Shown here one piece after another: positions 30,701 to 34,526 of a stretch of DNA of 64,000 nucleotides. Each line of letters begins with the position of its first letter. The first letter of the stretch is position 1. The DNA lies in the NCBI GenBank assembly GCA_023105745.1, contig JALGQZ010000015.1, positions 17,148,499 to 17,212,498 on the forward strand. The letters are read 5' to 3'. A model generated the notes under the pieces. The model had not been told where the DNA came from, searched no databases, and saw only the letters and a list, made by a program, of their open reading frames with translations. Source of the stretch: Austropuccinia psidii. Its lineage: Eukaryota > Basidiomycota > Pucciniomycetes > Pucciniales > Sphaerophragmiaceae. Position numbers and translations under genes: made by a program.

Positions 30701-33628
30701 GGTGATTTCCACTATTTCATTATGTCCAATCTTCCTAATGACATCCATGTTCAGGAGTTCATTGATATGTTTCTCAATCTCTTTCCTGGTCTCCAGACTT
30801 GCTGGGTAAGGAGGTCTCCTTAACATGGGTGGATAAGGCCTTTCTACATCCAGATATAGTTCTATATCATGGCCTTTGATCTTGCCTAATGGTTCTTCAC
30901 CAATGGCAAATGCTGGTCTATTCTTCCTCAGCATCTTCAGTAAACTTAGTTTTTGTTTACTGGTGAGGGTAGTGCTAAGCTGTCCCTCTCTGCATTCCTT
31001 AAGAAGTTCTTCTAGTGGATCATGAGAAGATATCTGGTATATATCAAGAGAAAATTTCTTTTCCTTGTTAGTACCAATGGTAATATGTCTATTTTTACTA
31101 TTGTAAATATCTATGCCATACATTCTCTGGTAATCTGTTCCCAGTAAAAACCCTTGGATGTGGGCATCTTCAAGCACTACAAACTCTGGGTTGAGTCTGA
31201 TATTACCTTTTCTGTGGGGTATAATTATCTCTTTGATAATTGTCCCAATAGAGGTCATCTTTCCAGATGCACTCTTAAAGTTCTTTGCCCTGGTGGGCAA
31301 GAGTTCTTTTTCCCAGTTTGGGAAGTGGTTATCCAGATAATTCCTGGCCACTATGGAGCAGTGTGCTCCACTGTCAATGATCAATGGGTGCTGAGCATTG
31401 TCAATACATACAGTCATTTTTGTGGCTGTTCCATGTATGTATGCCATTCCTTTGGTTGGTGTAACCAGGAATGTTTGTGCATCTTGTGTGTGTTTACACA
31501 AGTTCTTGTTGGCAGTGTCTTGTGGCATGCCTGCTTCCAACTGTATATCCTGGATTTCTAGTGGGGTTTCCTCTTGGTATTCCACTAGAAATTCCTCTCT
31601 TGGGTCTTGATCCTCATCAGATGGTTCCCTGATGGCATCACCCATAGAGTCTGATTCAGAATCCTCTGTTGGAGGTTCTTCTTCAGGGACTTTTTCTATA
31701 GCATAGACTTTCCTCTTCGCTTTTGGGCAGTTGTTGGCATAGTGATCTGTTGAACCACAATTGTGACAAGAATTCTTCTTCTTTGCCACTTCTGCCACTC
31801 TTTCTCTGGGTTTGTCTTTAAACTCTACCCTGAAAGGTTGTTTCTCTTTGAAACTATTGCTTCTATATGGGGTGAATTTCCCTATATTAGTCCTTTTCCT
31901 TATGTCTTGTAAGGTATTGGCTATATCATCTCAAGTGCAATTTTGGTTGCATCTGCACTTTACTGCATGCTCTAGTTCTCCTGGCAGTTGTGTCAGAAGT
32001 TTATGATTCCTCATTGGAATGTTCATTTTAGGATCAATGGCTTTAAGTCTTCTAGACTGTCTAAGACACCACTCATATGGATCTTTGTCCACAGAGTATT
32101 TGTCATTTTCAAATGACATGGTCTTTTGCCATATCCAAGTTCCATTACTGTACTTTTGGATTATTTGACTCTTCCACCATGGCCAGTTCCTTCTGCCATG
32201 GATTTCTTTCATTTCAGTGTACCATATACTTGCATGACCTTTAAATGCAGTATTTAGTCTAGCAGTGATCCAATAATCTGGTATGCTTGGTACATCAATG
32301 AAGAGTCCATAAATATAATCTATGAGTTCCATATGATCATATTCTCCTGATCCAGAGAATTTGGGCCAGCTTGAGGCCTCAGGAAGCTGTTTCAAGGCTT
32401 CCTTCTCTGAATAAGACATGCCATCTCCATCCTGGTATTGTGATGGAGATCTTGCCTTATTCAACAACATGGCATCTGGTTTGATGTCATCTGGTTGATA
32501 TGGATTCTCTATAGCTTGGCCTTGTGGTTGGGGCTTCAAGCTATGGTAGGCATCAAACAATTTGTTGATGTCTTGGTTCAGACACTCCCTGTCCCTGCTG
32601 CTATGGTGTTGTTCTTCAGAGACTTGATTCAGTCTCTTGTTGGTTTCTTCAGAGGCTTTGCTCAGTTGAGCATATCCTTCTTAAAGGTTTTTAACTATCT
32701 GCTCCAGTGAGGCTTGAGTTTTTCTCATCCTCTCTTGGGCAGCTGCAAATTCTGTAGCCTGTTTTGCAGATTGCTCAGCATATTGGGACATTTGTAACCA
32801 CAGTGTGTCACTGTTGATGTTACTCTCAGATGTGATAATGTTATTTTCAGTCTGAGTGGGGGTAATGTTTCTATTACTAGGACTACTGATTCTAGAGTGG
32901 TTTACAACTACTTCTGGTTCTTGTGTACTTCTTTTACCAAATCTAACAGCTTCTGGATCATGGGGTCTGACTCTTTCCTCCTCTGGTTGAAGGAGGCTTT
33001 GTTCTTGCCCTTGTTGCCTTGTCTTCTCCTGGAAACTTCCTGGAATTGTGAAGAATGGTGACTCTTGGCCACTGATCTGCTGGTTTCTGAATGGTGTGAA
33101 GCCACTGGAGAGCTGATTTGGCTTGCTCCTTGTGAACCTGAAGGAATCTGAGTAGGCCCTGTCTGGGTTAACTGTTCTTCTATAGCTTGGATAGTGGCTT
33201 GATTCTCCCTTATCCTCTGTGCCCTTGCCTCCAGGAGTCTGTGCTGCCTGGTAGGATTCCAACCCTTGGTGATTACCATAAGGTCTTTGAAGTCTATCTC
33301 TTTGAGACAGATCTTCTGGCAACTTGATCCCAGTTCTGCCCAGTGAGTTGCTAGGTTGAACCTCTTGTTGTCCATGCTCCATTGAAACAAATCTTTGAGG
33401 AGTTGGTGGATTTGAAGAACTTGATCCATATCCTTCCAGTCCTCTGGTTTGAGGTTTCTGTTGAATTGGAGTGTGAATGGGAAGGTTGATATTATCTCCC
33501 TCATTGTTTTGCCATCCACCACTGTGTCCAATGTGTCTTCTTTCAGGTCTTCTGGTTCTAGACATTCCTGCTCTATCCTCTGGCTGGTTCCTTTGGAAGC
33601 CAAGGTCTCTGAGGCATGCAGGGGACAT
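27773..33628 (-). pseudogene. A1 gag-pol polyprotein, single frame, nearly intact (two stops, two catalytic changes)
   Basis: One frame of 1952 codons runs from ATG 33628 (MSPACLRDLG) with stops at 32681-32683 (TAA) and 31931-31933 (TGA). Order: disordered N-terminus, capsid (EIHGRRNWPWWKSQIIQKY), CCHC knuckle CHNCGSTDHYANNC near residue 621, protease IDSGAHCSIV, RT with YIDD, RNase H, integrase (CERCQ, MDWVTG, SDRDPKF, DGLAERM), then a chromo-like tail (YLVRFKNQ...DKWLAED). The RT motif A aspartate is Ala (KMACMKGF; A2 has KMDCMKGF). The last RNase H aspartate is Tyr (TNAYGLSRW). Both should abolish activity. The 1341-codon stretch from 31798 is otherwise open. Confidence 0.93.
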
Positions 33629-34526
33629 ATCAGTGTTTGCAAGCAGTCAAAAACTTTATGTTCTTAGGGTATTTACCTTTGACTGTGCCTTGTACAAATT
33701 TGTTATCTGCTGATTTGGACAGTTTGCCTTTGGAGGTTACAACTGGGTTAATAATTGTAATCTTCCCTGTACAAGTGGTTAAGGTCGGTTTACCTTGTAT
33801 TGAAGCAGAGTTTCGTGGTTTTCTACTCCTCTGAGTGGCTATTGGTGTCCACTTCTTGGCTGTAATGAGGCCTTCACTAAGCCTTTTTCCTTTACCCTTG
33901 CTGCCCTCTGGTTCTGAGGGTGTCACTGGTGTGTTGGCCTGTGACTGGGTCTCAAGTGGGATATAGTTTTCTTCCACTGAATCAAAACAGGAAAAAAAGA
34001 GGGCTTATGTCAGTTAAGACTTCTTAAATGGCTGGTTTTGCACGTCTAAGAATGGCCTCTGGGCTTGTATATTATTACAATATGCCCTTGTATAATGACA
34101 GTGTAATTGAATTAACAATTTCACGTCAAAAATACAGCTTAAGGTGCCCTGTCACACTGTTTGTGTGCCAGTATCCCACAGATACACTTGTGGTTTGCAA
34201 GTGTACTCTGTAAAAGTGGTTTGTATACAAGTGTTATTGAATTAACAATACACTTGACCACGCCTCAACTGATGGTTTTTCAGTCAGAGGTGTCCTTATT
34301 CAGTCAAGAATACAGGACTTTATTGATGGCTTATGTGTTTTTATATACAAAACACACCAAAAATAATTAAATTCAGTGGGTATGAGCCACGTGAATACTA
34401 CTCTTTAATATATGAGTATGTATAAAAAGGATAAATATATATAATATATATATTTAAATAAAGAAATTACGCCTAAAAAGATAAAAACAATGGTTAATAA
34501 GTCATAAAAAAGAGAAAAGACTTACT
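32908..34526 (-). CDS. A1 spliced accessory protein overprinted on gag (predicted 333 aa)
   Basis: Predicted exons, minus strand: exon 1 ends at 34526 (A); exon 2 33976-33677; exon 3 33608-32908. Intron 1 (34525-33977, GTAAGT...GATTCAG) creates ATG from A|TG. Intron 2 (33676-33609, GTAAAT...CCTCAG, 68 nt) removes the gag ATG at 33628. The joined coding length, 1002 nt, is open throughout. Exon 3 reads TVVDGKTMREIIS, LKPEDWKDMDQVLQIHQLL, FQWSMDNKRFNLATHWAELG, then a basic linker and DPMIQKLLDLVKEVHKNQK. It looks folded and helical, while the gag frame over it looks disordered. No function is recognised. RNA evidence is needed for the splice sites. Confidence 0.72.

Follow-up and report, generated by a model that had tools for sequence, protein, structure and literature searches.

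Can a fungal retrotransposon carry, inside gag, a second gene that is brought out by splicing? Long terminal repeat (LTR) elements of fungi are commonly depicted with one or two frames translated from a single RNA. The question is raised by 64,000 nucleotides (nt) of the rust fungus Austropuccinia psidii (contig JALGQZ010000015.1, positions 17,148,499 to 17,212,498 of the forward strand; hereafter the window, in whose positions all coordinates are given), where the 5′ part of gag in an LTR element termed A1 is open in two frames. A first-pass annotation of the window had read the second frame as an accessory protein released by retrovirus-like splicing and overprinted on gag. Its observation is confirmed here, while its interpretation appears partly supported by the sequence comparisons described below. 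We consider it probable that three families of Ty3/Gypsy-type elements in the window, A (copies A1 and A2), C and D, carry a real second gene, the expression of which would be switched by splicing.

A predicted splice-made start codon and an AUG-poor leader

A1, a Ty3/Gypsy-type element, runs along the minus strand. Its LTR pair (36010-34572 and 27748-26310) shows 30 mismatches in 1428 ungapped positions compared, TG...CA ends are present, and the AGACA present at either flank is interpreted as a 5-bp target duplication. From the 5′ LTR inward, the element is organized as follows.

34572..36010, minus strand: 5′ LTR, TGTCAG...CTGACA, with its 3′ LTR partner at 26310-27748
34526..34571, minus strand: tail of exon 1; TTTTGGGGGCCTGGCC, primer-binding-site-like by eye, then ...TTACAA ahead of the donor
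33977..34525, minus strand: intron 1, 549 nt, GTAAGT...TTTTTTTCCTGTTTTGATTCAG
33677..33976, minus strand: exon 2 of the accessory gene, 300 nt, starting with TGG, no internal ATG
33609..33676, minus strand: intron 2, 68 nt, phase 1, GTAAAT...GCCTCAG, containing the gag ATG at 33628
32908..33608, minus strand: exon 3 of the accessory gene, 233 codons plus stop, +1 frame relative to gag
32684..33628, minus strand: first open piece of the gag open reading frame (ORF), 315 residues from the ATG, overlapping exon 3
31934..32680, minus strand: second open piece of the gag ORF, capsid-like by eye, bounded by two in-frame stops
27776..31930, minus strand: remaining gag (zinc knuckle) and pol, with Pfam matches to protease (a weak match), reverse transcriptase, RNase H and integrase

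The two-frame region had been placed exactly to the base: exon 3 (33608-32908) falls within a gag frame that is free of stops over 33646-32684, and the 68-nt GT-AG intron at 33676-33609 joins the exons in phase and takes the gag ATG with it. The spliced accessory reading comprises 333 residues, as had been proposed, and its final 233 codons share their DNA with gag, from which they are offset to the +1 frame. The companion proposal, that the unspliced RNA yields Gag-Pol, fails for this copy, because in-frame stops at 32681-32683 and 31931-31933 leave A1 unable to make full Gag-Pol. Its pol follows the order RVT_1 (420-576), RNase H (664-772), H2C2 (933-990) and rve (1007-1106) in Pfam, with a weak protease match at 173-267 (E 0.095); a chromodomain is absent from the Pfam matches up to E 0.1, and the C-terminus is chromodomain-like by eye only.

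What the first-pass annotation overlooked is where the accessory start codon comes from. The A1 acceptor TTTTGATTCAG directly precedes the TG of exon 2, and the last base of exon 1 is an A both in A1 (TTACAA/GTAAGT) and in A2 (TTATGA/GTGAGT). Removal of intron 1 joins A/TG in either copy, followed by GAA in the accessory frame, and it is this junction that dictates the A1 accessory codons, which run from 33974 onward. Exon 2 DNA is devoid of ATG in A1, A2 and D (that of family C has one), and therefore the full accessory protein of families A and D should be startable from spliced RNA only.

The unspliced RNA is nearly AUG-free ahead of gag. ATGs were counted from the LTR end toward the gag ATG and compared with 2000 dinucleotide shuffles; the leader test, and likewise the overlap tests described below, were bounded at 33634/33635, two codons upstream of the ATG at 33628 and in the same codon phase. 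The A1 leader holds one ATG in 937 nt, with 12.8 expected and 0/2000 shuffles as low. This count remains 1 when extended to 33629 (943 nt), and the only ATG within 34571-33977 is that at 34505. The family D leader has no ATG in 476 nt, with 6.3 expected and, again, none of the 2000 shuffles as low. In a control of 2524 segments of 937 nt taken from both strands of the 64 kb, the ATG ratio averaged 0.92, and it was 0.1 or lower in 12 segments, all of them at the A1 leader (34950-33664) or the D leader (15050-13964). Such AUG depletion is what would be left by selection for scanning translation of gag on unspliced RNA. Given an accessory ATG that is missing from the DNA and an unspliced RNA that is nearly AUG-free before gag, splicing would choose the start codon.

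We suggest the following scheme. Unspliced full-length RNA would retain both introns, a scanning ribosome would meet almost no AUG on it before gag, and Gag(-Pol) would be made; the same RNA would presumably double as the genome. Removal of intron 1 would create the accessory start codon from A and TG, and removal of intron 2 from the same RNA would delete the gag AUG and let the accessory reading continue, still in phase, in the +1 frame of 5′ gag. Because the gag AUG must sit inside intron 2, Gag would gain at its N-terminus an extension translated from the alternative frame of exon 3, largely as an unconstrained passenger. We infer from the DNA that the introns are spliced in this way in cells, and that the accessory protein is produced and has a function.

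Intron 1 of A1 also contains spaced motifs of the GGCGT/CACGTG/GACGTG type at 34471, 34391, 34262, 34125 and 34044 (minus strand), with counterparts in A2, and these are possible protein or packaging sites. A search of 33300-34700 for RNA families returned none up to E 1.

The same plan in A2 and in families C and D

The second copy of family A and the copies of families D and C can be read in the same manner.

37677..38230, plus strand: A2 intron 1, donor A/GTGAGT, A/TG retained
38231..38530, plus strand: A2 exon 2, 300 nt, no internal ATG
38531..38598, plus strand: A2 intron 2, 68 nt, gag ATG at 38579
38599..39204, plus strand: A2 exon 3, disrupted by a 92-nt deletion relative to A1
14247..14323, minus strand: family D intron 1, 77 nt, A/GTGAGG...TTTTAG
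14049..14246, minus strand: family D exon 2, 198 nt, starting with TG and giving A/TG after splicing, no internal ATG
13985..14048, minus strand: family D intron 2, 64 nt, GTAAGT...ACCAG, phase 1, containing the gag ATG at 13998
13335..13984, minus strand: family D exon 3, +1 frame relative to gag
11653..13998, minus strand: family D gag, open from the ATG, 782 residues counted to 11653, overlapping exon 3
56209..56367, plus strand: family C exon 2, 159 nt, TG start after TCTAG, one ATG (56233); a putative reading in a decayed copy
56368..56431, plus strand: family C intron 2, 64 nt, GTCTGT...ACCAG, phase 1, containing the gag ATG at 56418
56432..57194, plus strand: family C exon 3 region, with frame changes and stops in the accessory reading (decayed); pieces match family D

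The lengths of exon 2 (300 nt) and intron 2 (68 nt) in A2 equal those in A1, as had been pointed out; the parallel is broken in exon 3 by the 92-nt deletion. The gag-pol frame of A2 is broken as well, and both A1 and A2 are non-intact copies. The splice and phase proposed for the upstream exon recur beyond family A. Gag related to that of family A was found in four copies, namely A1, A2, C and D. In each of them, the exon 2 TG follows an acceptor AG, the gag ATG falls within intron 2, which is in phase 1 and 64-68 nt long, and the A of this ATG sits 13-19 nt ahead of the last base of the intron (the gag ATG close to the acceptor, ATGCCTTCAACCAG in D, ATGGTGCATACCAG in C and ATGTCCCCTGCATGCCTCAG in A1). 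The families are distant from one another, C and D being 36-38% identical to A over capsid-like gag, and the pol of family C 49% identical to that of A. The spliced accessory reading of family D comprises 282 residues.

Between families C and D, the accessory frame is conserved, with 29/82 and 32/72 identities in two pieces and 0/1000 shuffles as good for each. The gag frame shows no similarity in its upstream part (12/55 identities, 474/1000 shuffles) and some in its downstream part (25/60 identities, 0/1000 shuffles), and the gag frames of A and D are unalike over the overlap (488/1000 shuffles).

Over the initial 43 nt of intron 2, A1 (33676-33634, minus strand) and A2 (38531-38573, plus strand) do not differ at all, against a divergence of 15.3% in exon 2 and 22.8% in intron 1. 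This identity exceeds simple intron needs and perhaps marks an element that controls splicing or translation. The family D copy (9189-16260, minus strand) is flanked by near-identical long repeats about 5.3 kb apart, which we read as LTRs, and has open gag and accessory frames in its interior, with pol reduced to scraps; its sequence suggests a young non-autonomous element in which gag and the accessory gene have been retained. The pol of A2 is interrupted by a D-type LTR repeat at 42513-44303 (plus strand), and further repeats resembling it lie near 16498-18290, 23847-25643 and 52400-54187.

Frame constraint and competing explanations

Comparison of A1 with A2 over the exon 3 overlap yielded 52 substitutions, the deleted stretch excluded. 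In the accessory frame, 23 of these are synonymous, with 13.4 expected (p 0.003), versus 10 in the gag frame, with 13.6 expected (p 0.91). Outside gag, in exon 2, the accessory frame again shows an excess (27/46 synonymous, 12.3 expected, p 5e-6), and a control piece of gag at 32680-31934 behaves likewise (27/61, 14.6 expected, p 0.0004). Taken together, the synonymous excess in the accessory frame and in the gag control indicates a similar degree of constraint on the accessory protein and on Gag. The codon-substitution check put forward in the first-pass annotation thus favors the second frame.

The gag frame over exon 3 is, nevertheless, open. With the accessory frame fixed, none of 5000 synonymous shuffles left gag stop-free over exon 3, either in A1 (8.6 stops expected) or in D (7.4 stops expected). 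The reverse test is weaker. With gag fixed, the accessory overlap stayed open in 1658/5000 synonymous shuffles for A1, which is unremarkable, and in 372/5000 for D, which is mildly unusual; under codon permutation the counts were 319/5000 and 0/5000, respectively. An open run as long as that observed arose in 159/5000 (A1) and 384/5000 (D) synonymous shuffles and in 23/5000 (A1) and 1/5000 (D) permutations. As an overlapping pair, the accessory member is supported by substitutions and the gag member by its openness, the amino acids of the latter showing no constraint in the overlap. Since the overlapping gag frame is open without visible amino-acid constraint, the Gag N-terminus looks like a passenger, and the phrase "overprinted on gag" is better turned around, to a Gag N-terminus overprinted on the accessory gene.

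Searches for more DNA copies, among viral contigs (with the A pol and the D accessory exon) and genome contigs (with a piece of A gag), gave no relatives, so the two-frame test is limited to A1 and A2. Column conservation among public proteins fails to separate the frames (0.847 for the gag overlap, 0.843 for accessory exon 3). The public proteins do bear on the junctions. The A accessory protein has 701 public relatives at E 0.001 and the D accessory protein 563 at E 0.1, and the 120 listed for each are A. psidii "hypothetical proteins" (strain MF-1 in all listed for A). Among the listed A-type models, 90 cross the intron 2 junction, 81 of them exactly, one retaining the intron and eight with other joins; among the listed D-type models, 47 cross it, 33 exactly, one with the intron retained and 13 differing. 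A start at the spliced ATG was recognized by pattern in four A models and two D models among the 120 listed of each. For the gag frame, 105 of the 120 relatives listed, out of 1660, begin at the gag ATG. UniProt applies the name "No apical meristem-associated" to the D-type accessory proteins P0130, P0151, P0152, P0159, P0181 and P0231; it looks wrong, because in the nine proteins scanned no family reached the Pfam cut-off.

Several points weigh against a spliced second gene in families A, C and D. The A2 leader has 6 ATGs, with 14.1 expected and 6/2000 shuffles as low, and the 599-nt C leader has 4, including the one in exon 2, with 7.4 expected and 184/2000 shuffles as low, which is not significant; we put these residual ATGs down to decay. 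The donor of C intron 1 is a candidate picked by eye only (ACAA/GTAAGT in the LTR, at 55291), although it would again yield A/TG. Homology of the A and D accessory proteins was considered and found unsupported (hhalign probability 0.2%, 50/1000 shuffles as good), the layout alone being common to them; alignment of the A and C accessory readings found nothing, and no two families have similar exon 2 sequences (155 to 870 of 1000 shuffles did equally well). The substitution test compares two partly decayed copies under a simple expectation that separates transitions from transversions and leaves CpG aside, and the public proteins are computed gene models. The AlphaFold models of the accessory proteins are poor (predicted local distance difference test score, pLDDT, 47.5 for A and 62.9 for D), and searches of Pfam, PHROGs and PDB sequences gave no convincing domain or structure for them (one PDB chain, E 0.58); the role proposed below gains no backing from any domain match. 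A further gag-like ORF, identified by eye, lies at 18224-19200 (minus strand), outside the four copies compared.

These data can be read in other ways. The accessory frame might be real and the gag frame upstream of the capsid untranslated, in which case Gag would start from an AUG further downstream and its open frame over exon 3 would be incidental. The lack of visible amino-acid constraint between A1 and A2 in the overlapping gag frame fits this explanation, as do the unalike upstream gag frames of C and D and the unalike overlap gag frames of A and D. On the other hand, a stop-free gag frame is highly improbable if the accessory gene alone codes, in A1 as in D, the leader is nearly AUG-free right up to the gag ATG, and most of the listed gag-frame relatives start there, gene models though they are. 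We regard a downstream start of Gag as unlikely.

Another possibility is that intron 1 is removed and intron 2 kept. The resulting short protein, of 115 codons in A1, would end 1 nt ahead of the gag AUG, Gag would be made by re-initiation, and the long accessory protein would be a minor product. The stop-to-ATG spacing of 1 nt in both A1 (TGATATG) and A2 (TAACATG) made re-initiation attractive at first, and the identical first 43 nt of intron 2 would suit it too, but the spacing is not common to the other families, being 33 nt in D and 12 nt in C. In addition, exon 3 is constrained in the accessory frame, and an AUG-poor leader makes re-initiation unneeded. We consider this arrangement quite unlikely. 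Finally, chance or artefact, that is, a pair of long open frames in a sequence poor in stops, with GT-AG pairs that any search might turn up, could draw on the common opening of the accessory frame in A1 when gag is held fixed (1658/5000), yet the recurrence of the plan in three families, the frame constraint in exon 2 outside gag, the AUG depletion and the C-D conservation of the accessory frame make it very improbable.

Known systems and a possible role of the accessory protein

In complex retroviruses (human immunodeficiency virus, HIV, with its Rev, and similar viruses), spliced RNA gives a small protein, and unspliced RNA provides Gag-Pol and the genome; HIV Rev is not known to overlap gag. 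The likeness of such regulators to the rust accessory gene would be one of working scheme. Closest of all is Cer1, a Gypsy/Ty3 element of C. elegans, the full-length RNA of which encodes GAG and POL, and a spliced mRNA of which encodes CERV, partly in a non-gag frame (exon 4); as described in PMC10309623, CERV was shown by experiment to be needed for export of Cer1 genomic RNA and is without obvious homology beyond nematodes. By sequence, the rust accessory gene resembles CERV in belonging to a Gypsy/Ty3-group LTR element and in a spliced reading that enters a non-gag frame within gag DNA. In Cer1, however, exons 1-3 and 5 of cerv are in the gag/polyprotein frame and exon 4 alone differs, according to the same account, whereas the rust reading lies wholly outside the gag frame, has exon 2 upstream of gag and would use a splice-made start; N-terminal exons in the gag frame are not found in it, as the gag ATG would leave with intron 2.

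In barley BARE, splicing favors an RNA that encodes only Gag (PMC3735527). BARE and, by prediction, the rust elements are alike in dividing functions between spliced and unspliced RNAs; unlike the rust elements, BARE is presented in the abstract of that paper without a second-frame protein. Plant LTR retrotransposons contain additional conserved ORFs, some with splicing reported (PMC7264820). Sense ORFs likened to env and antisense ORFs are described there, in contrast to the rust accessory gene, and the terms "overlap" and "upstream of gag" find no match in the main text of that paper.

The first-pass annotation had been aware of no such arrangement in fungal Ty3/Gypsy elements. Among open-licence papers we likewise found no spliced second-frame gag gene in a fungal element, and the words "gag" and "intron" are both absent from the main text of the A. 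psidii genome paper (PMC8063080); outside the fungi, CERV is a precedent (PMC10309623). Spliced accessory genes that enter another frame of gag (Cer1) and spliced subgenomic RNA (BARE) are already known. As far as searches of open-licence literature go, three features are new: a start codon created by splicing, a leader poor in AUG, and an accessory reading no part of which is in the gag frame.

The accessory product is predicted to be largely helical. The A and D models agree in an order of helices, a non-helical stretch (basic by eye, of low confidence) and a C-terminal helix. That this helix contains a nuclear export signal was weighed, and no such claim is made. On the logic of the arrangement and the analogy with CERV, we tentatively propose, as the likeliest role, that the accessory protein might regulate the element's own unspliced RNA, in export, stability or packaging, although we hold this role doubtful. 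A wider reading by analogy, possible but short of probable, is that several rust LTR families follow a retrovirus-like two-phase programme, in which an AUG-free leader would keep unspliced RNA for Gag-Pol and a junction-made start would serve an early regulator that releases or packages this RNA, an independently arisen fungal counterpart of Rev and CERV.

If the proposed second gene is real, a conserved spliced gene within gag would mean that retrovirus-style regulation is present in fungi. In rust genomes, made up largely of transposons, it would offer a test for active elements, and it would account for hundreds of predicted proteins (the 701 A-type and 563 D-type relatives). The AUG-poor leader and the splice-made start codon would together constitute a clean, testable switch.

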